Virus record (IMG/VR): IMGVR_UViG_3300007722_000088 | Coordinates: 1 to 27,409 of that record | Length of the DNA: 27,409 nt | Source of the DNA: a virus | Reading direction: 5' to 3' (one strand) | Shown: positions 1 to 27,409 of the stretch, in pieces | Numbering within the stretch: position 1 is the stretch's first letter | Layout: every line of letters starts with the position of its first letter | Notes under the pieces: model-generated | What the model was told of the DNA's origin: nothing | What the model saw: only the letters and a program-made list of their open reading frames with translations | Database searches by the model: none | Position numbers and translations under genes: made by a program

Positions 1-419
1 CTCTCTTCCAATTCAATAAGTTTTTTTGTATCCGTCATTTTTCTTTTAATGTCGGATAGAATAGATTGGAGGTGAGCTTTTTCATGGCCGTCGAAAACAG
101 CCAATCCTTCCTTAGCTAACTTTTCCATAACCATTTCCTCAGCCAAATCAGATTTAATAGCCTTTCTATCAGCTCGCATTGCTGTCAAATCTGATTTCAT
201 TCTATTCATTAAGGATGTTCTATCTACTTCGTATCGATATATCTCCTTCGTTTTAGACTGAATTTGTTTGGTGAGGTCGAGAGTTTCCCTCGAAGACTTT
301 GTAATCGAGTCAGATACATCTTCCAACTCACGCTCAACAGCCAAGATATCACGTTTACTCTTAGCGTAGTCTGCTGTGAGTTTTTGGATTTCTGATAATC
401 TTTCTTTTTCGTTGGCCAT
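1..419 (-). CDS. Coiled-coil protein, partial (C-terminus beyond window)
   Basis: An ATG at 419 opens a frame that runs without a stop to the window edge, giving about 139 codons of N-terminal sequence. The translation begins MANEKERLSEIQKLTADYAK and is almost entirely charged heptad-like helix, rich in Lys, Glu, Asp and Arg, as expected for a long coiled coil. It lies 48 nt downstream of the gp51-like frame on the same strand, so it belongs to the tail/baseplate transcription direction; a TATAAATA box lies in the gap. No family was recognised. It could be a structural, tape-measure-like or scaffold protein, but that is inference from the coiled coil and position only. Confidence 0.75.
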   Translation of the reverse strand, partial: MANEKERLSEIQKLTADYAKSKRDILAVERELEDVSDSITKSSRETLDLTKQIQSKTKEIYRYEVDRTSLMNRMKSDLTAMRADRKAIKSDLAEEMVMEKLAKEGLAVFDGHEKAHLQSILSDIKRKMTDTKKLIELEE

Positions 420-467: not shown

Positions 468-752
468 TCATTTTCTGACAACTTGACCCGGCTGTGGGCC
501 CTTGTCAGCCGCTTTCTGCTGCTTGGCTTCACCTTCCTTAACTGACACCAGTTTTCTTAGGTAAAATCGACGCATTTGGACAGGAAGTGAGTATACGCCC
601 TCATGTGTGAAACCCCCTTGTCCGTAATAACAGAGATTGAAGAGTTCGTCGTGTAACTGAGACTTATAATTACTCGCTAGGCCAAAAAAAGTCCACACCA
701 AGTGGCAATGCCATCCTCGCGGTGTGGCCGCACGCTGGACATGTGAAATCAA
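468..752 (-). CDS. gp51-like baseplate/tail assembly protein, probably made by frameshift from the gp26-like gene
   Basis: This frame overlaps the last 83 nt of the gp26-like gene in the +1 (equivalently -2) frame. The family-like part lies after the overlap: a helical stretch, then YYGQGGFTHEGVYSLPVQMR and RRFYLRKL, then a polar tail ending at 468. The motif pattern (YYGxGGF, VYxxPVxxRRFY) matches a short protein that follows gp26 in T4-like phages; in T4, gene 51 directly follows gene 26. The only starts in frame are TTG/GTG inside the gp26-like gene: TTG at 752 has no Shine-Dalgarno, while GAGGA precedes a TTG/GTG pair by 12-15 nt. A run of seven U at 684-690 just before the gp26-like stop allows a slip that would fuse the two as ...DFF-GLASNYKS. 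Residues before that run are probably not translated in this frame. Confidence 0.6.
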   Translation of the reverse strand: MISHVQRAATPRGWHCHLVWTFFGLASNYKSQLHDELFNLCYYGQGGFTHEGVYSLPVQMRRFYLRKLVSVKEGEAKQQKAADKGPQPGQVVRK

Positions 753-1500
753 AGTTCATGTCCAAGTCGGGGTTGTTTCCCCTAATATGTGAACGAAGGG
801 ATCGTGAATCCATAGCGGTTAATTCCGTATCAACAAATTTCTTAATCAAGTTACGGTCTTCGTTACCGTCGATAGCAACAATCATGTATTTGAGGCGGGT
901 GGTCATCTCAGGAGAAACACCGTTTGGTGAAATCTTGGAGAGGCTCTTCAGTTCCGTGTCAATGGATTGTTCGTCCCGATGAGTCAATAACTTGTATGAA
1001 ATATTCTTTTTAGACTGTGGAAGTTCGTAGTTAAAACGATTTACTCCCTTTGAAAGTTTTGAAAAGTCAAACTCTTTCGAATGAAGTTCGGAAAGATTAA
1101 CTACAAATTCGCTTTCTTCACCACACTCAGTACACTTAATTTTGGCTGGATATTTATCACCATATGCTAAACGACGAGCAGCAATGAAAATAGCATTCTT
1201 ATCACCAATCAAAATATCATCCAATTTTATTGCTGGGTTGATGATTAAAGCTTTTAGAAGTTCATCCAATACGATACCTTTCTTAATGAGATTCTGACTT
1301 GTCAAAATATCTTCTTCCTTAGCCGTCATGAATTTTAACTCAATGCGACCTGATGATAGCGGAGACTCTGGTGGATAAAAATGTCCTTCAGTCGGAAGGT
1401 CGATGAATTCTGTTGGGTATGTCTGTTTTACAGGGATATCCGATTGTCCCACTTGGACTGGCTGCGGCGCTCTTGCGATTGGTATATTTTGGTTTTCCAT
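670..1500 (-). CDS. 26: Baseplate hub / tail assembly chaperone, T4 gp26-like
   Basis: This is a 276-residue protein of the T4 gp26 (T4_baseplate) type, which acts in baseplate hub or tail assembly. After a proline-rich N-terminus it shows the family core: TEFIDLPTEGHFYPPESPLS (about residues 30-49), then FMTAKEEDIL, LIKKGIVLDELL, and GDKNAIFIAARRLAYG. Two CxxC pairs, C123/C126 (CTECGEE) and C254/C257 (CPACGH), look like one split zinc ribbon. The C-terminus, PLGVDFFWPSE, follows the conserved FFWP ending I associate with this group. The ATG at 1500 is the first in frame and a hairpin terminator lies upstream. The 3' end overlaps the gp51-like frame at a U7 run. Family assignment is firm; the exact role (hub subunit or chaperone) is less so. 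Confidence 0.8.
   Translation of the reverse strand: MENQNIPIARAPQPVQVGQSDIPVKQTYPTEFIDLPTEGHFYPPESPLSSGRIELKFMTAKEEDILTSQNLIKKGIVLDELLKALIINPAIKLDDILIGDKNAIFIAARRLAYGDKYPAKIKCTECGEESEFVVNLSELHSKEFDFSKLSKGVNRFNYELPQSKKNISYKLLTHRDEQSIDTELKSLSKISPNGVSPEMTTRLKYMIVAIDGNEDRNLIKKFVDTELTAMDSRSLRSHIRGNNPDLDMNFDFTCPACGHTARMALPLGVDFFWPSE
684..690 (-). other. Candidate slippery site (U7) between gp26-like and gp51-like frames
   Basis: In the gp26-like frame the mRNA reads GAC UUU UUU UGG and stops six codons after the first UUU. A +1 step, or a -2 slip of Phe-tRNA on the U run, enters the gp51-like frame, which then stays open to 468. The run sits where a frameshift would join two proteins that both look real. 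Confidence 0.5.
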
Positions 1501-2605: not shown

Positions 2606-3208
2606 TTATACCTTCGATTGTATTCGTTGTAGTTCGGCGTTTTTGCGAGCCAACTCGGTTTCTTTACGACTAATTTGGTTCTGTAGTGGTGTAACGGCTT
2701 TGGCCAATTTACCCTTTAAATTCTGCATGTCGGTTTGAATCTTGTTTTTGTCTCTTTCAAGATTAGCAATTTTTTTCTGATCATTTGGATTCGCCGATTG
2801 AGATGTGCTAAGAGCATCTACCATGGCATCGGCCGGACTCATTGGTTCTCCAATTTCCTCTAAATGCGACTTCTTTAGATAGTTTGGTTTTGCCTCCTCA
2901 ATGTCGTGGATTAAATTGACCATTGAATTGATAATACCGTCCGGCTTTAATTGATAAGCAACGTTCCGCAAATTCCCATTTTTAGCATCTTTAGCTACAA
3001 CTTCTAAATCATTAGCAATTTTCTGTTTCCATTGACTGTATAACATATTACCGTAACCATTTAACTGAATAATTGGATCTGCACTGCGGCGATTCCCTAC
3101 AGGCTTGTCCATGATATATCCATACTTCGATCCAGCTTTATCCATAGCCTCATTTAATCGGTTTCGGATAATGGACTTGACAATCTCCTTTAATTCAGCT
3201 TTTTTCAT
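2606..3208 (-). CDS. Leader-bearing virion-type protein with C-terminal coiled coil
   Basis: This is a 200-residue protein of unknown function. It opens with MKKAELKEIVKSIIRNRLNE followed by Ala, so RLNE|A gives a gp21-like (L/I)xE|A site right at the end of the helical leader. A middle region of mixed composition (about 25-130) is followed by a linker rich in Ser, Gln and Asn. Residues of about 140-200 form a heptad-like coiled coil rich in Lys, Glu, Gln and Leu. It starts 4 nt after the stop of the upstream gene and ends 3 nt before the next start, so the three genes are one operon. The shared leader with both flanking kinds of protein suggests targeting to the same virion compartment; this is inference. 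Confidence 0.8.
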   Translation of the reverse strand: MKKAELKEIVKSIIRNRLNEAMDKAGSKYGYIMDKPVGNRRSADPIIQLNGYGNMLYSQWKQKIANDLEVVAKDAKNGNLRNVAYQLKPDGIINSMVNLIHDIEEAKPNYLKKSHLEEIGEPMSPADAMVDALSTSQSANPNDQKKIANLERDKNKIQTDMQNLKGKLAKAVTPLQNQISRKETELARKNAELQRIQSKV

Positions 3209-4205: not shown

Positions 4206-5147
4206 TTACATCCATTGACCCGGACGTTGATTTCGCGGAGAATAACTCTTCCCAGCAACATACTTGTCTAACACCAACTCACCAAGCTGGTCCAAAATAG
4301 CCTTATCTGTAACCGGCCGCTCACTCGCGTCAAATGCTCCCACCCTTTCCACCGATTCCGGAACTTCTGCCAAAGTGTCGCGGCCCTGGCCAGAGTAACC
4401 TCTTCGGGCATCAAACTCGTGGTCCACAGAGACTTCGTTCCACCCAAATTCAGCGCTTACAAAATAAATTTGTCCATTCAAAGTTACTTCTTCATCTTCT
4501 ACATCCCATTCCTCATTTGGTGCTTCTTGCATTACACGATTTTTTAAACCAGCGATTTGTCCACCCAATTCTTTCAAACCGTGCATCTGAATAAGCTCAT
4601 CGGCCAAAGCGACGATTTGAGTTAATTTTGCTTGTTGATTGTTGGCTGGACTTATCGTGTTAATGATCCTCTTTATAAGTCTACCAATTTCAACCTCGCG
4701 TTTTTCTTCCGGGTTATTTACATCACCCTCGGCGTGTTCAAATACACCCTCTTCACTATCTGCACAATCCTTATATTGGTATCCTTGTTTTTTCTCCCAC
4801 GAACTTAGTGCGTTTGGGGTTTTGCGGGTAGGACACGGAAATCTAGAAGGATGTGATTGATTGTGTCGATTTATTTTTCTATCAAAATCGTCACGCTCAT
4901 CTTGGTCCGGGTCATGGTCTTCCGAAACGTCTTTGTTTTCCCAAGCTGCCCACATCTCATTTACACGAACATCGCCTTCATTTTTCTTATTGTGAATTGC
5001 CCACATGGTAGAATATGCTTTCGGCGTCTCTCCATAGTGCTTAATAAGTTTATCATGTAGAGATTTTGGAAAATTTGGTGGGGCTGTTTCCGTCATCATC
5101 TCATTAATCGATTCACGGATGAGTTTTTGAATTTCTGTTTTTTTCAT
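4206..5147 (-). CDS. Leader-bearing hypothetical virion-type protein
   Basis: The start is taken at ATG 5147 because the protein then opens with MKKTEIQKLIRESINEMMTE, the same leader seen at 2602, 2437 and 3208; an earlier in-frame start at 5198 would put 17 unlikely residues in front. This gives 313 residues. After the leader comes FPKSLHDKLIKHYG and AYSTMWAIHNKK, a short domain I associate with marine phage hypothetical proteins, then an acidic low-complexity region (DHDPDQDERDDFD). A Cys-containing segment, FPCPTRKTPNALSSWEKKQ, follows, then helical and strand-rich parts. No enzymatic motif was seen. The TATAAATA box 18 nt upstream and terminator-like hairpin at 5200-5232 make it its own late unit. 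Confidence 0.8.
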   Translation of the reverse strand: MKKTEIQKLIRESINEMMTETAPPNFPKSLHDKLIKHYGETPKAYSTMWAIHNKKNEGDVRVNEMWAAWENKDVSEDHDPDQDERDDFDRKINRHNQSHPSRFPCPTRKTPNALSSWEKKQGYQYKDCADSEEGVFEHAEGDVNNPEEKREVEIGRLIKRIINTISPANNQQAKLTQIVALADELIQMHGLKELGGQIAGLKNRVMQEAPNEEWDVEDEEVTLNGQIYFVSAEFGWNEVSVDHEFDARRGYSGQGRDTLAEVPESVERVGAFDASERPVTDKAILDQLGELVLDKYVAGKSYSPRNQRPGQWM

Positions 5148-5165
5148 AGTATCAGGGTGTCGATA

Positions 5166-5173
5166 TATAAATA
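5166..5173 (-). promoter_or_regulatory. TATAAATA-type octamer upstream of the gene at 5147
   Basis: The plus strand reads TATAAATA (gene strand TATTTATA), 18 nt before ATG 5147. This is the same spacing as at 3681-3688. Confidence 0.45.
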
Positions 5174-5199
5174 GAAGTGTGGTGTGTGAAAGAAGCACA

Positions 5200-5244: not shown

Positions 5245-5733
5245 TTAGTATTGGAGTATAGCGTAATCGTACCGCAGAGTGACGTTCATCATAAGTGCGT
5301 CACTTGTTCCCCAATCAAGGTTGTTACCATTGAAAGATTCAACAAATGCACCTTTAAGTGTCCACTCTTCAACTTTATCAAGTGCTGGGCCGAGAACGTT
5401 GATGGTGACATCTTTCTTATAGAAATCAGCGTAACCGTTGCGGCCGGTGACAGATTCATGACTCAAACGAACCCATTCCATAACAGCTTGAGCTGCGGAA
5501 GGAACAACTGGGTCATAGAGGGTAATTTCAATAGGTTGCCATTCAGACTTACCTTTGACGTAACGCTTCAAGTTGATGTGTTCTAATGTAATTGGGTTGT
5601 TGTTGAACGAAGGCCGTCCAGCTGTTTTAATCATGTACGCTGGAATTCCGTCGATGTACATCGTGAAACGATTTTGTACCTTTGGTTCCCAGCTTTGAAA
5701 GAATGCCTCATTTTGGTCTAGTAGTTCTGCCAT
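5245..5733 (-). CDS. 19: Tail tube protein, T4 gp19-like
   Basis: At 162 residues it is almost the length of T4 gp19 (163), the protein whose hexameric rings form the inner tail tube. The sequence has the family pattern: an N-terminal FFQSWEPKVQNRFTMYIDGI, then PAYMIKTAGRPSF, an EHINLKRYVKGKSEWQPIEI strand pair followed by TLYDPVVPSAAQAVMEW, and a C-terminal LKGAFVESFN with LMMNVTLRYDYAILQY. The start ATG at 5733 gives MAELLDQNEAFF with no strong Shine-Dalgarno. A TATAAATA box lies about 46 nt upstream and a terminator just downstream, so it seems to be a single-gene late unit. It is far from the sheath gene (16503-19487), whereas T4 has genes 18 and 19 adjacent. Confidence 0.9.
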   Translation of the reverse strand: MAELLDQNEAFFQSWEPKVQNRFTMYIDGIPAYMIKTAGRPSFNNNPITLEHINLKRYVKGKSEWQPIEITLYDPVVPSAAQAVMEWVRLSHESVTGRNGYADFYKKDVTINVLGPALDKVEEWTLKGAFVESFNGNNLDWGTSDALMMNVTLRYDYAILQY

Positions 5734-10146: not shown

Positions 10147-11133
10147 ATGAATATGAAACCAGTAGAAAAGGATTATACCGTGGGCGTAATTGTGGCGCGT
10201 TTTCAGTGTGCCTCTCTCCACGAAGCACACAAAGAACTGATTGATACAGTTCTTTCTAACCATCCTAAAGTGATGATATTCCTTGGGTTAAGTCCCGTAA
10301 GAGGAAGTATTTACGACCCGCTAGACTTCCAGCCCCGCAAACAAATGATTCTTGAGGCATATCCCCACGATAAATTTCCAAACTTGTCTATTGGCTACGT
10401 CAAAGACAATCGTTCTGATTCCGATTGGTCCACTAAGCTGGATGAAAATATCAGAACGGAAATGGAACCAAATGACACAGTTGTTCTTTATGGCAGCCGA
10501 GATTCATTTTTGACCCACTACACTGGCAAATTCGATGTTCGCGAGTTGCAGTCCACTCGTTACGTCTCAGGCACCGAACTGAGAGCCAAGATTGCTCAGG
10601 CACCTCAGAATAATCCACAATTTCGGGCGGGAGCTATTTGGGCAACGGCCCAGCGATACCCACTGGTTTACTCCACTGTTGATATCCTGGTATTCGACCC
10701 TAAAGAACGTCGAGTTCTTTTGGCCCGTAAGCCCCTCGAAAGCCAGTATCGTTTCGTAGGTGGTTTTGCCGACCCAAAGGATGATTCGTTTGAAGTTTCC
10801 GCTCTTCGTGAACTGTCTGAGGAAACTGGTCTAGCCGTTGGTCTGGTCGGACTCCGTTACGTCGGGAGCAAGAAGGTTGATGACTGGCGCTATGCTAACA
10901 ATCCTTCTGAAAAAATCATGACCCATTTGTACGTTGGAGTTTACTCCATGGGCTGCCCAAAGGCGAATGATGACATTGCTGAGGTTCGTTGGTTTGATTA
11001 TGACAAATTGAACACGACCACTACAAATAGCGAAGGAACCAAATCCGCCGCTGAATTTACATTGGTGGAAGAGCACCGCCCTCTTTGGGTGATGGTTAAA
11101 AATTACATTGATACAAACTTTCCGAAGGCTTGA
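10147..11133 (+). CDS. nadM: Bifunctional NMN adenylyltransferase / Nudix hydrolase
   Basis: This 328-residue protein has two domains. Residues 1-165 are an NMN adenylyltransferase, which makes NAD+ from NMN and ATP: VGVIVARFQ and SLHEAH form the nucleotide-binding (GRFQxxHxGH-like) signature and QSTRYVSGTELRAKI (135-149) is the (I/V)SGTxxR motif. Residues of about 170-325 are a Nudix domain with a box at 205-229, GGFADPKDD... to RELSEETGL, keeping the E222 and E225/E226 catalytic set. The order matches the NadM-Nudix fusions of bacteria and KVP40-like phages, where the Nudix part acts on ADP-ribose or related products. It has a clear Shine-Dalgarno and its own promoter, and is followed by the phosphoribosyltransferase that makes its substrate. 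Confidence 0.9.
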   Translation: MNMKPVEKDYTVGVIVARFQCASLHEAHKELIDTVLSNHPKVMIFLGLSPVRGSIYDPLDFQPRKQMILEAYPHDKFPNLSIGYVKDNRSDSDWSTKLDENIRTEMEPNDTVVLYGSRDSFLTHYTGKFDVRELQSTRYVSGTELRAKIAQAPQNNPQFRAGAIWATAQRYPLVYSTVDILVFDPKERRVLLARKPLESQYRFVGGFADPKDDSFEVSALRELSEETGLAVGLVGLRYVGSKKVDDWRYANNPSEKIMTHLYVGVYSMGCPKANDDIAEVRWFDYDKLNTTTTNSEGTKSAAEFTLVEEHRPLWVMVKNYIDTNFPKA

Positions 11134-11190
11134 TATAACATAAGCCGACGAAACAACAAACAGAAATCCTGATAAAGATAAGGAAATTAT

Positions 11191-12630
11191 ATGAACAACA
11201 TAATGACACAGACTGACAGTTACAAGATGGGTGGACACTGGAATATGTACCCCGCAAACACCAATGGAGTGTATTCATACTTTGAATCCCGTAAAGGGGC
11301 AAAGTTTGACAAGACTCCGTTTTTCGGGCTTCAATACATCATCAAGAAATACCTCGTTGGTATCGTGGTAACACGAGCCAAGATTGAGCAGGCAGCAATG
11401 CTGGCCACGGCTCACTTTGGCAACAGCACCTATTTCAATCGCTCCGGTTGGGAATACATTCTCAAAGCGCACGGCGGCAAGCTGCCCCTTCGCATTAGGG
11501 CAGTGCCCGAAGGGATGCCCGTCACCGTGAATAACATTCTCATGTCGGTGGAGAACACCGACCCAAAGACCCCGTGGTTGACCAACTACGTTGAGTCTTT
11601 GCTAACTCACGTGTGGTATTCGTCTACCGTTGCCGCATTGAGTCGGTCCACCAAGGAAATGTTTACTGAATTCCTCAGTCGCACGAGCGATAATCCGGGT
11701 TGCATCAACTTCATGTTGCACGATTTTGGATATCGCGGAGCCACGACCGCCGAAGCCGCTGGTATTGGTGGATGTGCTCACATCACTAACTTTCTTGGGA
11801 CCGATACGCTTCCCGCGTTGGAATTCGCCGCCGAATACTATGGTGGCATCTGGGCCGACCGTGCCGGGGAAGACGTCAACCCTTACAGCGGTCTCGCTTA
11901 CAGTGTAGCCGCTACCGAGCACAGTGTAATGACTGCATTAGGACCAAAGGGAGAGATCGATATTCTTGAAGACCTTTTAAACAAATACCCAACCGGTATT
12001 TTGAGCGTGGTCTCAGACTCATACGACATTTACAACTTTGTTGAAAACTTTGTGTGTAAGCAGTTCAAAGACCGCATCCTTGCCCGTGATGGTGTATTCG
12101 TGGTTCGCCCTGACAGTATTTCGCCAACCCACCCAACACCGGAAGGTGAAACGTTGTGGATTGTCGAGACGTTGGCCAACAACATGGGCTACACCACCAA
12201 TAGCAAGGGCTTCAAGGTTCTCAATCCTAAGACCCGCGTATTGTGGGGCGATGGTATTGATAAGGACGGAATTGAAAAGATTCTCACCACACTTGAGAAG
12301 GCCGGATATTCTTCCGAGAACATGGTCTTCGGTATGGGCGGCGGATTGTTACAGAAGTTGAACCGCGATACTCAGAGTTTTGCATTCAAGTCGAGTGCTC
12401 AGAAGCGTGATGGTAAGTGGCACGACATTTACAAACAGCCTAAGGATTTGTCCAAGGCTTCTAAGCGTGGCAAGTTGAAGTTGTTCAAAGATGGTGATGG
12501 ATTCAAAACAGTGAGCAGCAATGACGTCGGCTACAACAACGAAACCGACATTTTGGAGACGGTCTTTGAAGATGGTGACATCATCAAAGAATACACCTTC
12601 GATGAAGTTAGAAACAATATCAAACTATGA
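11191..12630 (+). CDS. nadV: Nicotinamide phosphoribosyltransferase
   Basis: This 479-residue enzyme is full length for the NAMPT/NadV family and makes NMN from nicotinamide and PRPP. Key features in order: DSYKMGGHWNMYP near the N-terminus, HDFGYRGATTAEAA (177-190), ATEHSVMTALG (241-251, with the phosphorylated-His equivalent at His244), SVVSDSYDIYNF (272-283), VVRPDSISPTHP with Arg306 and Asp308 of the phosphate site, WGDGID, and VFGMGGGLLQKLNRDTQSFA. The start ATG at 11191 has AAGGA eight bases upstream. It follows the NMN adenylyltransferase gene by 57 nt in the same direction, so the two form a nicotinamide-to-NAD+ pathway. Its stop overlaps the next start (ATGA). Confidence 0.95.
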   Translation: MNNIMTQTDSYKMGGHWNMYPANTNGVYSYFESRKGAKFDKTPFFGLQYIIKKYLVGIVVTRAKIEQAAMLATAHFGNSTYFNRSGWEYILKAHGGKLPLRIRAVPEGMPVTVNNILMSVENTDPKTPWLTNYVESLLTHVWYSSTVAALSRSTKEMFTEFLSRTSDNPGCINFMLHDFGYRGATTAEAAGIGGCAHITNFLGTDTLPALEFAAEYYGGIWADRAGEDVNPYSGLAYSVAATEHSVMTALGPKGEIDILEDLLNKYPTGILSVVSDSYDIYNFVENFVCKQFKDRILARDGVFVVRPDSISPTHPTPEGETLWIVETLANNMGYTTNSKGFKVLNPKTRVLWGDGIDKDGIEKILTTLEKAGYSSENMVFGMGGGLLQKLNRDTQSFAFKSSAQKRDGKWHDIYKQPKDLSKASKRGKLKLFKDGDGFKTVSSNDVGYNNETDILETVFEDGDIIKEYTFDEVRNNIKL

Positions 12631-16502: not shown

Positions 16503-19487
16503 TTACGCTGTTGGGAACACAGCACCTGTGGGCAATACGTTGAAATCCAGTACGATGAACTCAGCGGTACGCGATGGTTTCAAGTAGATTTGCCCGTAGA
16601 GGATACCACGGTCAACCATGTCTGGAGTGTTATTAGTATCATCCATTACAACCTTGAAGGCGTATAGACCACTACGTTGTTGAACTGATTCCAAGTAAGG
16701 GTTGACGATACTTAGGAAACGGTTACGTGTTGCCGATACGTTCTGTTCGAATACAAGGAAACGTGAAGACGATGCGATGTATTTCTTGAGAGCAATCATC
16801 AAACGACGAACGCTTACACGGTCGAGAGCCGATGGACTACGTTGAAGTGTTTTTTGACCCCAAGCCACGATACCTTGACCAGGGAAAGCGGCGATTGGGT
16901 TGACCTTACCTTCGTAAAGTCCATCACGCTCAACGTGTGTTAGACGGTCAACAACTTGAACAGCGGCTGGGATGCCACCACGGTTGAGACCAGCTGGTGC
17001 GAACCACTCTGCAGCAACCGCGTCATTGGCAGCGTAAACAGCCATCATAACAACGGAAGGAGGTGAAGCGATAATCTTATTTGTGTTCGTGTCCTTGATT
17101 TTCACCCATGGGTAATAAGTAGCAGCGTAATTCGTATCGAACTCACTTGCCAAATCAACTGCGTTCAACTGTGAGGACTCTCCAGCCAATTGGTTAGGAG
17201 CGATATCAAAGATATAGAACGCATCTCCACGATTTTCACACATTTCAACCGTTAGGTTAACGACGTATGGGTGTTGCTCGTAGTTAACACCTGGTGTGGT
17301 GATAAGATTGAAATCGTATTCATCAGAATTACTTAGAGCAGCAATCGCTTGACGATATCCATAGGTTCCACGAGAAACGTTGGTAGAACAATCAAGTCCT
17401 TGTTGGTTAGTGGAGAGTATGTCATCTCCACTGAGAACAGGAAGAGATGGGCTCTGACCGTCAAAGCCGCCTTGGAAACCAAGAACGAAGCGGCGTTTCT
17501 TAACTGTAGTTGATTCGGTAGAAGCAACGTATAGTGGGGAAACTCCACAATCGTCTTCCAAGTCGAAAGCGTCATTTGAAGCGGCGCTTGCACCTTGTGG
17601 GATTGGAGCGAAGTATTGTTTGTTGTCACGTTCAGGTCCAACGGCGGAGCCAGAAGGATAGAGGGCCAACAGAGTAGCGTCCGCGTCCGAAGGAGCTGGA
17701 TTGAACAATACGCCGGAAGTCCAACGACCAGGTTGTAGTAAATAAGTTGAAGCGGAGCTGTATGCCATCTTCGGAAGAACACCTCGGCGAGCGTATTCTC
17801 CACCTGTTGGTGAAGCGTAAGCAGCGAATCCGAATGGAAGGGAGTCTGTTGGCCAAGGAGCAACGGCTGTTTCAATACGAATCAACTTGCTCTTGTTAGC
17901 ATAACTTCCGAAACTTAGAACCTTACCGTTATAATCGATGTATGAATAAGTGTCACCGATACGACGGGCAACAAAGTCCGAAGAATCTGGATTCAAGTTT
18001 AGGTTATCAAACTTTTCCAAGACGATTGGACGCTTGTCTGTATCCGTGTAAGAACGGAGGATAAGAGAGAACGTGCCGTAATCTGAACCTGGGATTGAAC
18101 CAGCCGACTTTACGTTAGCGATTTCAACCTTATAGGTTGTGTTCATATCAGTTCCGTCACCGGCGGTGTGAACCTTGAACAATTGGTAGTGGTAAGAACC
18201 TGTTCCACCTGTTGAACCTGCCCAATTTGCTACTGCCTGAGATTGAATCCAAGGTGTGTAAGCGTTGGTTAGGTCGTATGTAGAAGTACCGACATCAGGT
18301 GTGATACCGTCAGAGAACGAGAGAGCGTCACGAGTTTGAACTTGAATCTTCCAACTTCCGGAAGCAAGTAACTCAGTCATGACCGTAGCCATCTTGTCGT
18401 CGAATACGTTATAGATGTAAGCAGCTTCAATTTTTGCTCCAGCAGGAACAGCTACATATCCAGCTTGTGGATTATCACCAAATACATTCGAAATGTATGC
18501 GGAACTTTCTCCATCGATGGAGAAATCATATGTTCCATAGCTTGAAGTTACGTTATTATCATCTTTGGTGTTGAGGACCAAACGATATGAGGTTGTCACA
18601 TCGGTTGTAATTGATGGGGTTAACACCGAACCACTGAATCCGTCGAGGTTTTGTCCACGGTCGAGTGCGGTATTAGCCAATACAGCCAATACAACTTCGT
18701 CACTTCCTATGGAAGCAGTCAAGCCGCCACACGCGTCTTCGATAGAAATTCCTATATTAGCTTCCCAGGTGCTTGTATTAAATTTACCATATTCTCCTGT
18801 AATCCATCCTACAACGGAGGCTTCGGTTGCACATGCACTAACAGAGGTTATTTCAACGGAACCGCTGAATGAGATTGCTTTGTTGGCAGCGTGTGGGAGA
18901 TATGATACCGACATTGTTGGTGAACCAACTAAGTTACCAGCGACGAAAGATGAACCTGTGTAGTTAGTAGCACTAATTTGTGCGGCAAAGGTTCCAACTA
19001 CAATTGTCTCTCCGGCGTAAACACCATCAACAAATGTAGCACTTAGTGTTCCGGTGATATCAAATACATCAGCGCCGTTCGATTGGCTAATAACTGTTCC
19101 AATGGACTTGCCTGTGAACGAACTACTTTCAGTAAAGCGGTCTTGTGTTCCAGGGATAGCTGTGACGAATAGAGCAGCACTCTGCGTATAACCGGCAAGA
19201 CCACCAACACGAACAATCGTTACTTCACCTTGTTGACGAATGTATTGTTGAGCGGTATAAGGGCCATATAGTTTGCCGTCGGGATCACCAAAGATACTGG
19301 TGAGGTCAGCTTCACTACGGATTACGGTTGGGGTGAAACCAGGTCCTTTTGGGAAAGGAGCGACGACTACGCCGCCAATCTGCTCAATTCCTTGAGCGAG
19401 ATATGATGAATCAATCTCCTTTGTGAAAACGCCTGGTGAAACGATGCGTTCGGATGGGCTATATTTGCCGTTTTGTTCTAATGCCAT
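16503..19487 (-). CDS. 18: Tail sheath protein, T4 gp18-like, unusually long
   Basis: The product is the contractile sheath subunit. The N-terminus (SERIVSPGVFTKEIDSSYLA, then GIEQIGGVVVAPFPKGPGFT, then LYGPYTAQQYI and VTIVRVGGLAGY) and the C-terminal domain (GLYEGKVNPIAAFPGQGIVA, WGQKTLQRSPSALDRVSVRR, LDFNVLPTGAVFPTA) are clearly gp18-type. At 994 residues it is about 335 longer than T4 gp18 (659). The extra length is mostly between about residues 100 and 500, rich in Ser, Thr, Gly and Ala with beta-like segments, and probably forms one or more surface domains. The start ATG 19487 has GGAG 11-14 bases upstream. It has its own TATAAATA box, a terminator upstream and one downstream, so it is a single-gene unit. 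Confidence 0.95.
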   Translation of the reverse strand: MALEQNGKYSPSERIVSPGVFTKEIDSSYLAQGIEQIGGVVVAPFPKGPGFTPTVIRSEADLTSIFGDPDGKLYGPYTAQQYIRQQGEVTIVRVGGLAGYTQSAALFVTAIPGTQDRFTESSSFTGKSIGTVISQSNGADVFDITGTLSATFVDGVYAGETIVVGTFAAQISATNYTGSSFVAGNLVGSPTMSVSYLPHAANKAISFSGSVEITSVSACATEASVVGWITGEYGKFNTSTWEANIGISIEDACGGLTASIGSDEVVLAVLANTALDRGQNLDGFSGSVLTPSITTDVTTSYRLVLNTKDDNNVTSSYGTYDFSIDGESSAYISNVFGDNPQAGYVAVPAGAKIEAAYIYNVFDDKMATVMTELLASGSWKIQVQTRDALSFSDGITPDVGTSTYDLTNAYTPWIQSQAVANWAGSTGGTGSYHYQLFKVHTAGDGTDMNTTYKVEIANVKSAGSIPGSDYGTFSLILRSYTDTDKRPIVLEKFDNLNLNPDSSDFVARRIGDTYSYIDYNGKVLSFGSYANKSKLIRIETAVAPWPTDSLPFGFAAYASPTGGEYARRGVLPKMAYSSASTYLLQPGRWTSGVLFNPAPSDADATLLALYPSGSAVGPERDNKQYFAPIPQGASAASNDAFDLEDDCGVSPLYVASTESTTVKKRRFVLGFQGGFDGQSPSLPVLSGDDILSTNQQGLDCSTNVSRGTYGYRQAIAALSNSDEYDFNLITTPGVNYEQHPYVVNLTVEMCENRGDAFYIFDIAPNQLAGESSQLNAVDLASEFDTNYAATYYPWVKIKDTNTNKIIASPPSVVMMAVYAANDAVAAEWFAPAGLNRGGIPAAVQVVDRLTHVERDGLYEGKVNPIAAFPGQGIVAWGQKTLQRSPSALDRVSVRRLMIALKKYIASSSRFLVFEQNVSATRNRFLSIVNPYLESVQQRSGLYAFKVVMDDTNNTPDMVDRGILYGQIYLKPSRTAEFIVLDFNVLPTGAVFPTA

Positions 19488-20715: not shown

Positions 20716-21624
20716 ATTTTTATAAAATTCCTCTCATATTTAAAAATTTCATCATCTGGACTTGCTCCATTTTCGCACCGACGACACATATCAAAACATG
20801 AATATGGTTTTGGAATAATGTCGTCATAACTCTGCGTCAATAGATTCCCTATAATGTTTTCTAGCCCGTAGTCCATACAACACAACATCACAATTTGGCA
20901 ACATGACATTGTGATATAACCGCTCTTCACATTTGCAAGTTTTTGGAACATCGGATATGCCCGCCGACTTAAATCTATCTCTTAGTTTGAGAAGTTCGGG
21001 CTTCATCGTTGCTTCGCCTAAAAGATTACCGGCACGGTCCCACATCTGATATACTACAGCACTTTCGTAAATGTGTTTAACATCCTTGTGCACCGCACCC
21101 ATGGCCATCACGCTAAAATTAGTAATTTCACACTCAACCGTTTTTATTCGCTCTATCACTTCAATGTATCGTTTAGAAATCGGATGTTTAGCCAACCTTT
21201 CATCGTCTGGTAAGTGTAAAACAAATCCACCGTTAGGATTGGGTGAAAATGGTATATTTTTAATTCTATCTACATCTTCAATCGTCATTCCGATTCCGGT
21301 AGTAAAAACCGCGACCAAATGGCCCTTGGTGTGAGCATACAACAACATATCGGTTGTATCTTTATTCAACCATGGTTCTGTAAATCCTGCGAATGTTATT
21401 CGCACCTGTGTGGGCAATTTATCAAGAACTTTTTTAAAATTGTCCAACGTTAGCGTTTTTTCACCTGTATAAACTTTTTCCAATGTTCGCTGAGGACAAA
21501 ACGCGCAATCTACAACACACCCCTTCAGCGGGATGGATGTGGTTATTTCGAGGGTTGGAAATTTTACAAGTTTCCACTTGTCCATGGACACTCCTGGAAA
21601 AACTCTTACTTTGTTATCTTCCAC
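20712..21624 (-). CDS. Radical SAM enzyme with Cys-rich C-terminus, interrupted by a frameshift
   Basis: The N-terminal part has the radical SAM cluster GCVVDCAFCPQ (Cys36, Cys40, Cys43) after LVKFPTLEITTSIPL, plus RITFAGFTEPWLN (GGEP-like position). The C-terminus should be a SPASM/Twitch-like cluster domain: CKCEERLYHNVMLPNCDV in the first frame, then CCMDYGLENIIGNLLTQSYD and SCFDMCRRCENG in the +1 frame down to 20712. In the first frame the protein stops at 20824 after an unrelated tail. The shift lies in GATGTTGTGTTGTATGG near 20872-20890. The second frame ends in an ATGA overlap with the glycosyltransferase start, so 20712 is the ancestral end. Either a one-base indel or recoding is involved. 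The enzyme probably does radical chemistry on a sugar, peptide or small molecule within this cassette. Confidence 0.75.
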
Positions 21625-21625
21625 A

Positions 21626-24169
21626 TTATCGATTGTCTATGTAAATTACTACCGTCGAGTAGTATTTGATAAAATGATCATTCCACAAATCCCACTTAAT
21701 GTCTATATTATCCAGAGAAAAAACATAATGATTTATCAAGGTCTTTAAATATAAATCTCTGAATAGCCTGAACTTCTTTTTATCAGCTTCGGTATGTAAA
21801 TGAAATTCACCCGCAATTTTCTTAACATTCTTTTTTATCCACTCATAATTTTTTTCATTAAAGATATCATATTCGCCACCCTCACAGTCAGTTTTTAGAA
21901 AGTCAATTCTATCAATTGAGTGATTTGCTAGGAAGGTTGTAAATTTTATACTACCGGCAAACTTTTTCTTCGAGTACATCGCCATTGAATCTTTATTAAA
22001 AAGACCAGAAAATTCAATAGGACCATCGACTGCACCAATCCCCTTTGGTATACATTTAACCGGGACGGTAACATTTCCCATATTTCGCTCCAACGTTTTA
22101 AATAATTCGGAATGTGGTTCGAAGCAATATATCTTTTCTGGTTTATTCGATGCGGCCATATACGAAAATGGTCCGACACTTGCCCCGACATCAACTACAA
22201 CATCACCCTCTTCGACATTAAAAAACTTTTGATATGTATTTTCAATAAAATTTTCTCGATTTACAATTTTTAAAAATTCTTCATTCTTTGAAATTTCCCC
22301 CCACTCAAAATTAGTCGCTGACCCAACCGGATTCAACATATAATCTTCAGCTGCTTTCACATGGTCTCCGAGAGATTCCATCAATTCAATCATCTTAATA
22401 TCGACTAAATCTGGATGGACATACCAGTCTTCATAGTATCTCCAATCGTCAGGAGCAATATTTTTTGCAACCATTCTGTATCCATGACTCTCTAAGTATT
22501 TTCGAGACTCAACCATTACAGTACGAGTCGTATCACAATATGCGTCGTGTTCAAATGTAACGACGGCGAATTTTCGCTTATTGAACGGAATATTTAACAA
22601 AGCCTTGTACGAAACGTCCAGTGGCTCACAGTCTATTTGAAGATAATCTATGTTGGTGGGGAGTCCGTGGACGGTAAAGAGGTCTTCGTAATTTACAGTA
22701 GTGCCATCTTCTTTTACACACGGGTTCCGTCTTTCCGAAGAAAAGTCTTTTACAAAACCATCATCTATTTCAAGAGAAATTCCATTCCAATCAAATGACT
22801 GTTCTAAAAGAGCTGTATTACTTCCATAAAAAGGCTTACCAGAACCAACCTCAACGTATGTGCCGTTTCTTTTTCCATTTAACATAGTTAAAACAAATAT
22901 GTCTTGATAAGACTCTGAAAAGTTTTTCTCAACTATTTGTGATCCGCTAAATTTAAATTTGAGTCTATCGAACTTGGTCTTGTCGTAACTCACAATCACA
23001 TCTGTCTGTAGCTGATTTAAGAATTTCAAATTATTAAGGACTGCTCCTCTGTGCGTTAAATCTAAATTGTGGTCACGTATTAAATGCAAGAATGTATTTT
23101 TCGATTCGCCACATAGGCCGACCCACCAAGAACTGACAGCTCTCTCGAAAATAATTCCATATTTTCCTGGGTAATCAGTCTGTATTAATAACGGGGGAGA
23201 ATTGAAATCGCATATTTGTTCTCCTAAAGACGCTATGGTAAAGCAGTTTACCCAACCTTCCACATTTGATTCATTCTCATAAAAGCGGCTTAGTAGGTAG
23301 TAAGCCTCTGGTCGTCGCGGTAACAATACCATAGCTCTCTGTAAAAGTCCTCTCACCGATAGCCCCCGCGTACCCTGTTTTGAAAAACACATAGACGCTC
23401 TAATTAAACCTTCATACGCAAACACATCATCGGATGCTCTTTCTGCTGCTCGAATGTAGTAAGAAATAGCTGATGCGGTTTGTCCAATGGAATCATAATA
23501 AAATCCCAAATAGAAGTTTGTGTGAGGTGAAGCAGTATCTGTGATGTATCCTCGTAGTAAGGCGTGGATGTCTGAACCAATCACCTGTGTATAAAACTCA
23601 TGAACGCTAATAAGGTTTAACCACTCTCGTCTATTCTTAGCAAGGTTCTCATAAGTTAATGAATCGGTTGAAGTAAGTCGAAATGCTTTATTGTCACCCT
23701 TGCAAATTATTCCACATCCTTCATCGGTATCAACCACAACCGAAATCAATTCTTCGGAAGATCTTCTCAGTTTGACAAAAGCCTTCCAACAGTCACCGTT
23801 CCACATTCCACCTTTATAGGGGATTGCTTGAGCCTGTTCACTCATTGGATTCATATCGTGGCAAATAATATAACCATTCGGATTTAAACACATCAAAGCA
23901 TTTTTAATGTCTCGTTCAACTTGGTCAGCGTGATGTAATCCGTCAATAAAGATGATATCGAACATTTCCTCGTTCTGTCTAAAAAATTCATCAGAGTTCA
24001 TCACCAGCACAATTTCTGGATTCTTCCAATCGGATTTAACGGGATCAACACCCGTCTTTCGTTGGCAGATTACTTGATCTAAATTATTTCCATCGTATAC
24101 ACCGATTTCAAGATAAGACTTAGCACCAATCTTAGTAATCAGTGAATTTATTAAAGCGGTTCTATTCAT
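21626..24169 (-). CDS. Triple methyltransferase fusion (class I domain plus two FkbM-like domains)
   Basis: This 847-residue protein holds three SAM-binding domains. Domain 1 (about 1-170) has KSYLEIGVYDGNNLDQV and FDIIFIDGLHHADQVERDI, like Methyltransf_24. A helical, TPR-like part follows (about 195-400, e.g. HTNFYLGFYYDSIGQTASAI and PEAYYLLSRFYENESNVEGW). Domain 2 (about 415-600) has GTYVEVGSGKPFYGSNTALL and IDYLQIDCEPLDVSYKALL. Domain 3 (about 630-847) has DVVVDVGASVGPFSYMAA (from about 656) and FLKTDCEGGEYDIF (757-770), both FkbM-type. FkbM-family enzymes commonly O-methylate sugars or small molecules. Its start overlaps the upstream beta-propeller gene stop (ATGA) and its stop is 1 nt before the radical SAM start, so all are co-translated. 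Substrate is unknown. Confidence 0.8.
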   Translation of the reverse strand: MNRTALINSLITKIGAKSYLEIGVYDGNNLDQVICQRKTGVDPVKSDWKNPEIVLVMNSDEFFRQNEEMFDIIFIDGLHHADQVERDIKNALMCLNPNGYIICHDMNPMSEQAQAIPYKGGMWNGDCWKAFVKLRRSSEELISVVVDTDEGCGIICKGDNKAFRLTSTDSLTYENLAKNRREWLNLISVHEFYTQVIGSDIHALLRGYITDTASPHTNFYLGFYYDSIGQTASAISYYIRAAERASDDVFAYEGLIRASMCFSKQGTRGLSVRGLLQRAMVLLPRRPEAYYLLSRFYENESNVEGWVNCFTIASLGEQICDFNSPPLLIQTDYPGKYGIIFERAVSSWWVGLCGESKNTFLHLIRDHNLDLTHRGAVLNNLKFLNQLQTDVIVSYDKTKFDRLKFKFSGSQIVEKNFSESYQDIFVLTMLNGKRNGTYVEVGSGKPFYGSNTALLEQSFDWNGISLEIDDGFVKDFSSERRNPCVKEDGTTVNYEDLFTVHGLPTNIDYLQIDCEPLDVSYKALLNIPFNKRKFAVVTFEHDAYCDTTRTVMVESRKYLESHGYRMVAKNIAPDDWRYYEDWYVHPDLVDIKMIELMESLGDHVKAAEDYMLNPVGSATNFEWGEISKNEEFLKIVNRENFIENTYQKFFNVEEGDVVVDVGASVGPFSYMAASNKPEKIYCFEPHSELFKTLERNMGNVTVPVKCIPKGIGAVDGPIEFSGLFNKDSMAMYSKKKFAGSIKFTTFLANHSIDRIDFLKTDCEGGEYDIFNEKNYEWIKKNVKKIAGEFHLHTEADKKKFRLFRDLYLKTLINHYVFSLDNIDIKWDLWNDHFIKYYSTVVIYIDNR

Positions 24170-25509: not shown

Positions 25510-26436
25510 TTAACACGACGAACCCTGTGTTCCGCTCGGTGGGTTGCTATCCAAGGCACATGGAGTTTCCCACCATGTGTCATACGCGATGCCAGAGTAG
25601 TCGATAGCACTACCACTTCCACCGGCGCAATATGTCCACGTCTCATAAATGGTTCCACCATCATCGTAATACATAGTCCAATAGTGACATGCTGGTGCAG
25701 GAGTTGCTGTCGGTGTAGCTGTTGGGTTTGGCGTTGCTGTTGGGTTTGGCGTTGCTGTTGGTGCAGGAGTTGGTGTTGGTGCGTAGAATACTGGTGTGAC
25801 ACTCGTTGGGTATGCTGGCATTGTGAGATGGCCATATCGCACGAGTCCTATCTGACCATCGTCGGTTGTAGCGTAACCCGACCAGTAACCCCATGTGTAG
25901 CCGGAGATACCAGTACCGGTAATATTGACCCGCATTCCAGCTGCATAATTTCCACCACCGGACAGAGCCGAAGTACCCTGACCACCATTGACGGATAGAG
26001 TATATGTCGGGACCGGAGTTGGTGTTGGTGTAGCCGTAGGTGCAGGAGTTGGTGTAGCCGTAGGTGCAGGAGTTGGTGTAGCCGTAGGTGCAGGAGTTGG
26101 TGTAGCCGTAGGTGCAGGAGTTGGTGTAGCCGTAGGTGGCGGGGGGGTGGGCGTAGGAGTAGCCGTGGGCGCAGGAGTAGCCGTGGGCGCCGGAGTTGGA
26201 GTATACGTGATATTATAATCACAAAAGATATTGGCAAGGTCAGTATTTGCCACATAACCCGTCGCACTTGTTCTAAGCCCGGTGGCGGCTCTCGGAGTCC
26301 TACCATCAATTGGTTGGTAAACATCAATCAAATCTGTTGCGCCATCGTAAAGCTTCGTGGCATTGGTCTTGGTCCCGAAAGCATAGGACTTGAACAGGGT
26401 ATTTAAGTCACTAGCTCCACTTTTAAAACCGCTCAT
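25510..26436 (-). CDS. Adhesin/tail-fibre protein with Pro-Thr repeats and an InlB-type beta repeat
   Basis: This is a 308-residue surface-type protein. Residues 1-75 (MSGFKSGASDLNTLFKSYAF then GTKTNATKLYDGATDLIDVY) look like a fibre attachment domain. A Pro-Thr-Ala low-complexity stretch follows (APTATPTP units, about 80-140). Next comes a domain like the divergent InlB B-repeat (YTLSVNGGQGTSALSGGGNY, MRVNITGTGISGYTWGYWSG), then a second Pro-Thr stretch (TPNPTATP). The last 60 residues are rich in Trp, Tyr, Gly and Cys and probably form the ligand-binding tip. Pro-Thr linkers are classic sites of O-glycosylation, which is notable beside the downstream methyltransferase/glycosyltransferase cassette. 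It starts 2 nt after the stop of the collagen-like fibre gene. Confidence 0.75.
   Translation of the reverse strand: MSGFKSGASDLNTLFKSYAFGTKTNATKLYDGATDLIDVYQPIDGRTPRAATGLRTSATGYVANTDLANIFCDYNITYTPTPAPTATPAPTATPTPTPPPPTATPTPAPTATPTPAPTATPTPAPTATPTPAPTATPTPTPVPTYTLSVNGGQGTSALSGGGNYAAGMRVNITGTGISGYTWGYWSGYATTDDGQIGLVRYGHLTMPAYPTSVTPVFYAPTPTPAPTATPNPTATPNPTATPTATPAPACHYWTMYYDDGGTIYETWTYCAGGSGSAIDYSGIAYDTWWETPCALDSNPPSGTQGSSC
25690..25772. repeat. Short tandem repeats coding for a Pro-Thr linker
   Basis: Repeats related to GTTGCTGTTGGGTTTGGC code (on the minus strand) for PTATPNP units in the distal linker of the adhesin. This array is shorter than the one at 26014-26208. Confidence 0.7.
26014..26208. 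repeat. 24-bp tandem repeats coding for a Pro-Thr-Ala linker
   Basis: The unit GTAGGTGCAGGAGTTGGTGTAGCC recurs almost perfectly about five times, then degenerates. On the minus strand it codes for PAPTATPT. The near-identity of the units suggests recent expansion and a region prone to length change. Confidence 0.85.
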
Positions 26437-26437
26437 A

Positions 26438-27409
26438 TTATTTAATAAGTTGCTTTTTAACTTCGTTCAGTTCTACGCGAAGTTCTTTAATAGCTTCAAC
26501 CAATAATGGAATGACCTTTTCATAATGGATTGTTTTATATTTCGCTGGGTCGATTGGTGCTGGAACTACCACTTGAGGGAGTACCGCTTCAACTTCTTGA
26601 GCCGATAAGCCAACTTCAAGTTGTTTTTTGTAACCGAGTTTTTGAGCTATTTCGTTTGGTTCGTAATAGAATCCATTCAGAGCATCAACTTTATCCAAGG
26701 CGAATTTTATGTTGCCCTTGCGAGTTTTTAAAGCATTGTCTGAAAAATTGGCGGTGATAGTACCAGTGGCGGTCAGCGCACCAGCGATGGCAATCGTCGC
26801 TCCATTGTCCGTTATAATACTGTTCCCAAGGGTTGTAGCAGCTGTGTATTTTGGAATATAGGTTGTGGTGCCAGATATAGAACCTATACCTTGGATTCCC
26901 TGTATGCCTTGGATTCCCTGCGAACCAGTTGTTCCTTGGGTACCGGTAGTTCCTTGACGACCTTGTATACCTTGGATGCCTTGGGTACCAGTTGTTCCTT
27001 GGGTACCAGTTGTTCCTTGGGTACCGGTAGTTCCTTGACGACCTTGTATACCTTGGATGCCTTGGGTACCAGTTGTTCCTTGGGTACCAGTTGTTCCTTG
27101 GGTGCCAGTTGTTCCCTGGGTGCCAGTTGTTCCTTGTATTCCCTGTATGCCTTGGATTCCCTGGGTACCAGTTGTTCCTTGGGTACCAGTTATACCCTGG
27201 GTGCCAGTTGTTCCCTGGGTGCCAGTTGTTCCTTGTATTCCCTGTATGCCCTGGATTCCCTGGGTACCAGTTGTTCCTTGGGTACCAGTTGTTCCTTGTA
27301 TACCCTGGCTACCTGTTGTGCCTTGGGCGCCGGTAGTTCCTTGGATTCCTTGAATACCCTGAGTTCCAACAGTACCTTGGGTTCCTGTTGTTCCCTGTGA
27401 ACCAGTCAC
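26438..27409 (-). CDS. Collagen-like tail fibre with C-terminal S74 intramolecular chaperone (N-terminus beyond window)
   Basis: At least 323 residues lie in the window. The frame is open to the edge (a GTG at 27409 is the first codon seen), so the real start is probably outside. About 175 residues are uninterrupted G-x-y triplets, mostly GTT, GTQ, GIQ and GRQ, expected to form a collagen-like triple helix. A short beta part follows (TTYIPKYTAATTLGNSIITD). The last 110 residues are an S74-type chaperone: NFSDNALKTRKGNIKFALDK, LEVGLSAQEVEAVLPQVV and YEKVIPLLVEAIKELRVELN. This domain trimerises fibres and usually cleaves itself off at the Ser before Asp (FSD). The fibre would serve in host attachment; Thr-rich triplets are possible glycosylation sites. 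Confidence 0.85.
   Translation of the reverse strand: MTGSQGTTGTQGTVGTQGIQGIQGTTGAQGTTGSQGIQGTTGTQGTTGTQGIQGIQGIQGTTGTQGTTGTQGITGTQGTTGTQGIQGIQGIQGTTGTQGTTGTQGTTGTQGTTGTQGIQGIQGRQGTTGTQGTTGTQGTTGTQGIQGIQGRQGTTGTQGTTGSQGIQGIQGIQGIGSISGTTTYIPKYTAATTLGNSIITDNGATIAIAGALTATGTITANFSDNALKTRKGNIKFALDKVDALNGFYYEPNEIAQKLGYKKQLEVGLSAQEVEAVLPQVVVPAPIDPAKYKTIHYEKVIPLLVEAIKELRVELNEVKKQLIK
26890..27409. repeat. Nested 9-bp and 18-bp tandem repeats coding for collagen-like G-x-y triplets
   Basis: Short units such as TTGGGTACCAGTTGTTCC are arrayed in larger blocks. Some blocks of 80 bp or more are nearly identical copies (e.g. 26935-27010 and 27010-27085). The array extends to the window edge and is likely to vary in length between relatives. 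Confidence 0.85.

Follow-up and report, generated by a model that had tools for sequence, protein, structure and literature searches.

A T4-family tail assembly chaperone gene with a probable programmed +1 ribosomal frameshift in a large, mostly uncultured phage lineage

Known frameshift systems and the locus under study

Frameshifting in tail assembly chaperone (TAC) genes is known from phages lambda (G/GT) and P2 (E/E'), where the shift is -1, and from HSTV-2, where it is +1. In phage Mu the shift is -2, and a review describes tail-chaperone frameshifting as broadly conserved in long-tailed phages, "except T4" (PMC5009743). The proteins gp26 and gp51 of T4 are both listed as hub assembly chaperones in a review of that phage, and the literature infers a TAC function for them. 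According to two articles that cite the work (PMC12846349 and PMC10274946), the principle of a short TAC-N and a longer TAC-NC product in T4-like phages was set out by Vladimirov, Gautam and Davidson (Virology 2022); PMC10274946 adds that in some T4-like phages a short gene is accompanied by a longer, fused one. The tail-chaperone frameshift is a known kind of system, with a T4-like application that was published, going by these citing articles, in 2022. Two +1 sites from elsewhere are also relevant: that of RF2, which is mainly CUU_U and in a minority of species UUU_U (PMC5009743), and that of influenza PA-X at UCC_UUU_CGU (PMC3498833), which is a precedent for UUU_C.

Here we analysed a viral DNA of 27,409 nt (IMG/VR record IMGVR_UViG_3300007722_000088, positions 1 to 27,409), referred to below as the window. 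On the basis of sequence comparisons, a locus on its minus strand very probably encodes a tail assembly chaperone whose gene is translated with a programmed +1 ribosomal frameshift. As in lambda G/GT, P2 E/E', Mu and HSTV-2, a short and a long product are predicted, a single site lies before the tape measure gene and both parts are conserved; the window's family differs from these systems in having another frame and another site, and no sequence similarity of its chaperone to the lambda-type families was detected. With the T4-like phages of Vladimirov et al., as these are presented in the citing articles, the locus shares the T4 gp26/gp51 family (PF12322) and the TAC-N plus TAC-NC logic. The resemblance to RF2 (CUU_UGA_C) lies in the one-base re-pairing of the P-site codon on CUU_U or UUU_U and in a next codon UGN followed by C (UGG C in the window), whereas the A-site stop codon, the autoregulation and the conserved 5' Shine-Dalgarno-like element of RF2 have no counterpart at the window's site. 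A UUU_Y site without a stop codon or evident stimulator would be an unusual bacterial +1 site for mechanistic work. What appears to be new is the +1 class within the PF12322 family, its breadth, and a second replacement by gene duplication in a sister clade.

The gp26-like gene, its second frame and the conserved putative slip site

The gp26-like open reading frame runs from 1500 to 670 on the minus strand (stop codon at 672-670), encodes 276 aa ending in FFWPSE, and matches PF12322 with an E-value of 7e-15 (55.7 bits against a cut-off of 24.5). Its 3' end reads GAC TTT TTT TGG CCT AGC GAG TAA, with the run of seven U (U7) at 690-684, that is GAC_UUU_UUU_UGG_CC in frame; the window contains TTTTTTTGG a single time, on the coding strand. 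The second segment (468..683, minus strand), here called TAC-C and T-like as TAC-N is G-like, lies in the +1 (= -2) frame relative to the gp26-like gene, contains no ATG, and gives 71 aa from GGC at 683-681 to the stop codon at 470-468. The -1 frame at U7 closes within a few codons. The predicted fusion, TAC-NC, joins residues 1-272 of the gp26-like protein to the +1 segment and is 343 aa long. The frames, the coordinates, the U7 run and the lack of an ATG in the second frame, all named in the original prediction for this DNA, were confirmed when rechecked.

Each part was folded on its own, from its plain translation. The AlphaFold model of the gp26-like protein had a pLDDT of 87.9, and that of TAC-C consisted of three helices with a pLDDT of 79. 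The TAC-N model gave 62 matches in BFVD at E<=0.001, and many of the named ones were baseplate hub proteins of the T4 type. Among 350,542 PDB chains, the HK97 tail assembly chaperone 2ob9 ranked 4th-5th for this model, a weak and not statistically significant match (E about 2; TM 0.41-0.50 by target), and a sequence search of the PDB with TAC-N yielded no significant match. For the C-terminal part, no significant match was found in a fold search with a 73-aa model, and the window's second frame matched nothing in Pfam and PHROG. We also noticed weak, sub-threshold matches of relatives' C-terminal segments to DUF6760 (E 0.001-0.1; L042:3788-3973 and L077:3749-3937), along with one match to phrog_634; DUF6760 is possibly a remote relative of the C-terminal chaperone segment.

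To see the site in an unselected sample, we took the first 80 relatives found with the N-terminal protein alone, 72 of which had enough sequence and no tandem copy. The second-frame peptide, detected by tblastn, continued in the +1 frame from the slip site in all 72 of these loci, and a -1 shift at an X_XXY_YYZ slippery site does not describe the window's family. In a second family of 80 loci, seeded with Flavobacterium phage immuto, the +1 peptide likewise started at the site, apart from one truncated contig and L130, which was left unparsed; about half of this family read TTT CTT TGG. A further set of 143 complete loci, admitted only if the +1 frame stayed open for 50 codons or more, fell into 63 clusters at 80% amino acid identity. 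The sequence before the final T was TTTTTT or TTTCTT in nearly all of them, giving TTT YTT T, and one cluster had CTT CTT T. Across the 63 clusters there was hardly any variation from position -6 to +5 relative to the site, synonymous positions included. The third base of both slip codons was T in 63/63 clusters, in comparison to 0.02-0.5 bit at nearby synonymous positions. Where the site encodes Phe-Phe it was TTTTTT in 50/50 clusters, against an expectation of 0.60 per cluster (nominal P 9e-12, a value that ignores shared ancestry), and 22% of the Phe codons elsewhere in the gene were TTC. An alignment of homologues had been proposed as a check on the U run and the overlap, and its outcome, with the site kept across the clusters, agrees with the prediction.

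The +1 frame itself behaves as coding sequence. Its peptide follows the conserved pattern FGL..Y...IF.L.Y...G..YxLP..LR, and substitutions at codon positions 1:2:3 were distributed as 10359:6096:21930, the pattern expected of coding DNA. An ATG was absent in 37/63 clusters, and 13/63 had no ATG, GTG or TTG able to start the segment. A near-identical contig assembled independently from another sample (L001) differed from the window at 1 position in 4199 nt and had the identical U7. The conservation of the site, the bias at third positions and the same U7 in an independent assembly together indicate that the frame break is real and selected; the observation at U7 is well beyond chance. The proposal of a short gp26-like protein and a frameshifted fusion as a tail chaperone pair has in this way gained strong comparative support. 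Over the 63 clusters, we found neither a conserved 3' structure (stem-loop or pseudoknot; mean z -0.2) nor a Shine-Dalgarno-like stimulator at a consistent place 5' of the site.

In the proposed mechanism, the majority of ribosomes would read UUU UUU UGG CCU AGC GAG and then stop, producing the 276-aa TAC-N. A minority would slip one base forward while the P site holds Phe-tRNA (or Leu-tRNA in the CUU variants), which would re-pair on UUU_U/C or CUU_U in the manner of the RF2 site, and would read on through GGC CUA GCG to make the 343-aa TAC-NC. By analogy with lambda G/GT, many copies of TAC-N and few of TAC-NC may cover the product of the adjacent tape measure gene, with the C-terminal domain recruiting tail tube subunits. 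We infer the shifting of ribosomes at this site and its frequency from the sequences, and the chaperone roles and the product ratio by analogy.

Direction of the shift and other explanations

The original prediction took the -1 shift of lambda and the -2 shift of Mu as its models. At U7 alone, re-pairing of tRNA-Phe is equally good for -2 and +1, and a -2 shift of the Mu kind, in which the P-site Phe-tRNA moves back two bases and an extra Phe is decoded, would have perfect re-pairing in the window. Natural variants of the site are informative here. The second segment was still in the +1 frame in 15 loci with TTC TTT TGG and in 4 loci with TTT CTA TGG, as well as in Streptococcus phage GXN1 (TTC TTT CGT) and in the more distant Sphingomonas phage PAU (TTT TCT TAA). 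All four of these sites allow +1 re-pairing, with a tRNA on UUU moving to UUU or UUC, but would require mismatched re-pairing for a -2 shift, which makes +1 the most likely direction; we hold this with high but not complete confidence, and regard the -2 shift as unlikely. The sites CTT CTT TGG and TTT CTT TGG are also compatible with a slip of the RF2 type on CUU_U.

Three further explanations do without a ribosomal shift. RNA polymerase is known to slip on homopolymer runs, and the T7 tract of the window is such a run; minority mRNAs lacking one U or carrying two more would then encode the fusion. However, about 40 of the 143 loci contain no homopolymer above three or four T (TTTCTTTGG, TTTCTATGG, CTTCTTTGG), a further 15 loci read TTCTTTTGG, and the +1 fusion frame is kept in all of them. 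These non-homopolymer sites rule out slippage of the polymerase as a mechanism common to the loci, and for the window we give it hardly any weight. Scarcely more probable is that a small gene of its own, with a GTG, TTG or unusual start, encodes the C-terminal segment, or that this segment is translated by re-initiation after the gp26-like stop. A TTG lies upstream in the window's +1 frame, and two loci (L237 and L242) do have a separate gene, yet this reading is at odds with the clusters that lack a usable start codon, with a conserved peptide that begins exactly at the slip site, with the frozen synonymous positions of the slip codons, and with the presence of a complete fused copy where the site is lost.

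Runs like U7 are error-prone in some sequencing chemistries, and a homopolymer error in sequencing or assembly, with the true gene a single open reading frame, had been considered the main alternative. It was ruled out by the same frame break in more than 140 loci, by the independent assembly with its single mismatch, and by the isolate genomes of immuto, Mel-JY01 and RM378 together with the non-homopolymer variants of the site; the probability left to it is negligible. A programmed +1 ribosomal frameshift remains the preferred reading of the locus.

Relation to T4 gp26/gp51 and loci with the frameshift replaced

T4 gp26 (208 aa) and gp51 (249 aa) are both full PF12322 proteins (8.8e-64 and 3.9e-52). 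In gp51 the match covers residues 1-201 and is followed by a C-terminal tail of about 45 residues, which is absent from gp26. This tail aligned with the segment that cyanophages P-SSM2 and S-PM2 encode in the -1 frame (hhalign 97%, E 4e-10), and the cyanophage segment in turn aligned with the +1 segment of the window's family (91%, E 1e-6). The direct comparison between the C-terminal domain of the window's family and the gp51 tail was weak (1.6%), so that the link runs via the cyanophage family. Given that both T4 proteins are full PF12322 members and that only gp51 has the tail, this chain of homology indicates, at the level of sequence, that TAC-N corresponds to gp26 and the putative fusion TAC-NC to gp51. 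The second frame had been called gp51-like; it does resemble gp51, but only over the last ~45 residues of that protein, and the equivalent of gp51 would be the fusion product. Likewise, gene 51 was said to stand right after gene 26 in T4, and the two are indeed adjacent but divergently transcribed. T4 reaches the short form and a paralogue with a C-terminal extension through these two genes, without a frameshift. Cyanophages, phiM12 and Cr30 resemble the window's clade in using a frameshift, but theirs is -1 on U_UUU_UUY and that of the window's clade most likely +1 on UUU_Y/CUU_U. The -1 frame was found on U_UUU_UUC in P-SSM2, S-PM2, phiW-14 and huge phages related to LR756511, and on U_UUU_UUU in Cr30 and phiM12.

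The U run is lost in 12 loci of the window's sister clade, belonging to at least 5 clusters; they mostly read TTC TTC TGG at the site, and their next open reading frame encodes a second gp26-like protein in which the C-terminal segment is already fused in one frame. This second open reading frame starts with a GTG that lies no more than 11 nt away from the stop codon. Loss of the U run with a fused duplicate, versus 0/50, gave a Fisher p of about 3e-7. In the tree, the first copies grouped with the lineage of the window, and the fast-evolving second copies lay inside the same large clade and apart from T4 gp26/gp51; their position apart from the T4 proteins suggests that duplication replaced the frameshift independently of T4. 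The case that would speak against the frameshift, a separate ATG-started gene for the C-terminal part without a U run, does occur, in just two loci, L237 and L242.

Thus the window's lineage, the cyanophages and T4 belong to one family that arrives at the same protein pair by shifting +1, by shifting -1, or by having its genes duplicated or split. We consider it likely that the T4-family chaperone of a large, mostly uncultured lineage is made with a +1 slip at UUU_Y or CUU_U, where the A site holds a sense codon and no stimulator is conserved, and that one family has switched among a -1 shift, a +1 shift, genes split in two and duplications that arose twice independently, all the while retaining the pair of a short and a long product. 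Since several mechanisms yield the same pair, one can now test if selection acts on the ratio of the forms and not on the mechanism. Isolates of the lineage come from Flavobacterium, Microcystis, Rhodothermus, Bacillus, Streptococcus and Listeria hosts. Contigs of cellular genomes with close relatives (L204-L212) were mostly Bacteroidota MAGs (Flavobacteriales, Saprospiraceae, Winogradskyella, Sphingobacteriales), which suggests that Bacteroidota are common hosts of the relatives. The analysis also corrects annotation, as in most isolate genomes checked the C-terminal part is omitted, or entered on its own as gp51 or as a hypothetical gene; this was seen in immuto (L082), SP-15 (L085), LIS04 (L089) and P-SSM2 (L203).

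The tail gene cluster of the window

Next to the chaperone gene lies the start of a probable tape measure protein with a coiled coil (3..419, minus strand), which runs off the window. In the near-identical contig L001 the corresponding open reading frame encodes 898 aa with a coiled coil, and a tape measure annotation is found at the matching position in immuto and LIS04. The tail tube protein of the gp19 family (5245..5733, minus strand) is encoded upstream, within the tail gene cluster shared with the chaperone. In isolates, the chaperone locus sits between the tube and tape measure genes; in the window, additional open reading frames separate the tube gene from the chaperone gene. Consecutive ones in this interval, at 1634-2602, 2606-3208 and 4206-5198 (minus strand), carry the same short motif at the N-terminus (MKKxELKxxIRE..., with two copies in the first), which is possibly a common targeting or prohead signal.

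The same cluster includes a gene for a tail sheath protein of 994 aa (16503..19487, minus strand), which marks the phage as contractile-tailed. The match of this protein to sheath profiles is confined to its last ~330 residues, and it has a long N-terminal region besides. At 26438-27409 (minus strand) a collagen-like fibre (GTTGTQGIQG) with a Peptidase_S74 C-terminal chaperone is encoded, and the next gene, at 25510-26436 (minus strand), encodes a protein with PTPAPTATP repeats. A radical SAM protein adjoins a protein of 847 aa whose two methyltransferase domains include FkbM, at 20824-24169 (minus strand), with an uncharacterised enzyme-like open reading frame alongside; this looks like a glycan-modification cluster within the tail region. 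On the plus strand, at 10147-12630, a NUDIX-domain protein, the N-terminal part of which resembles by eye a NadM-type adenylyltransferase, is encoded beside a nicotinamide phosphoribosyltransferase (NAMPT_N and NAPRTase). We take this gene couple to be an NAD+ salvage pair, like the phage ones said to counter NAD-depleting defences.
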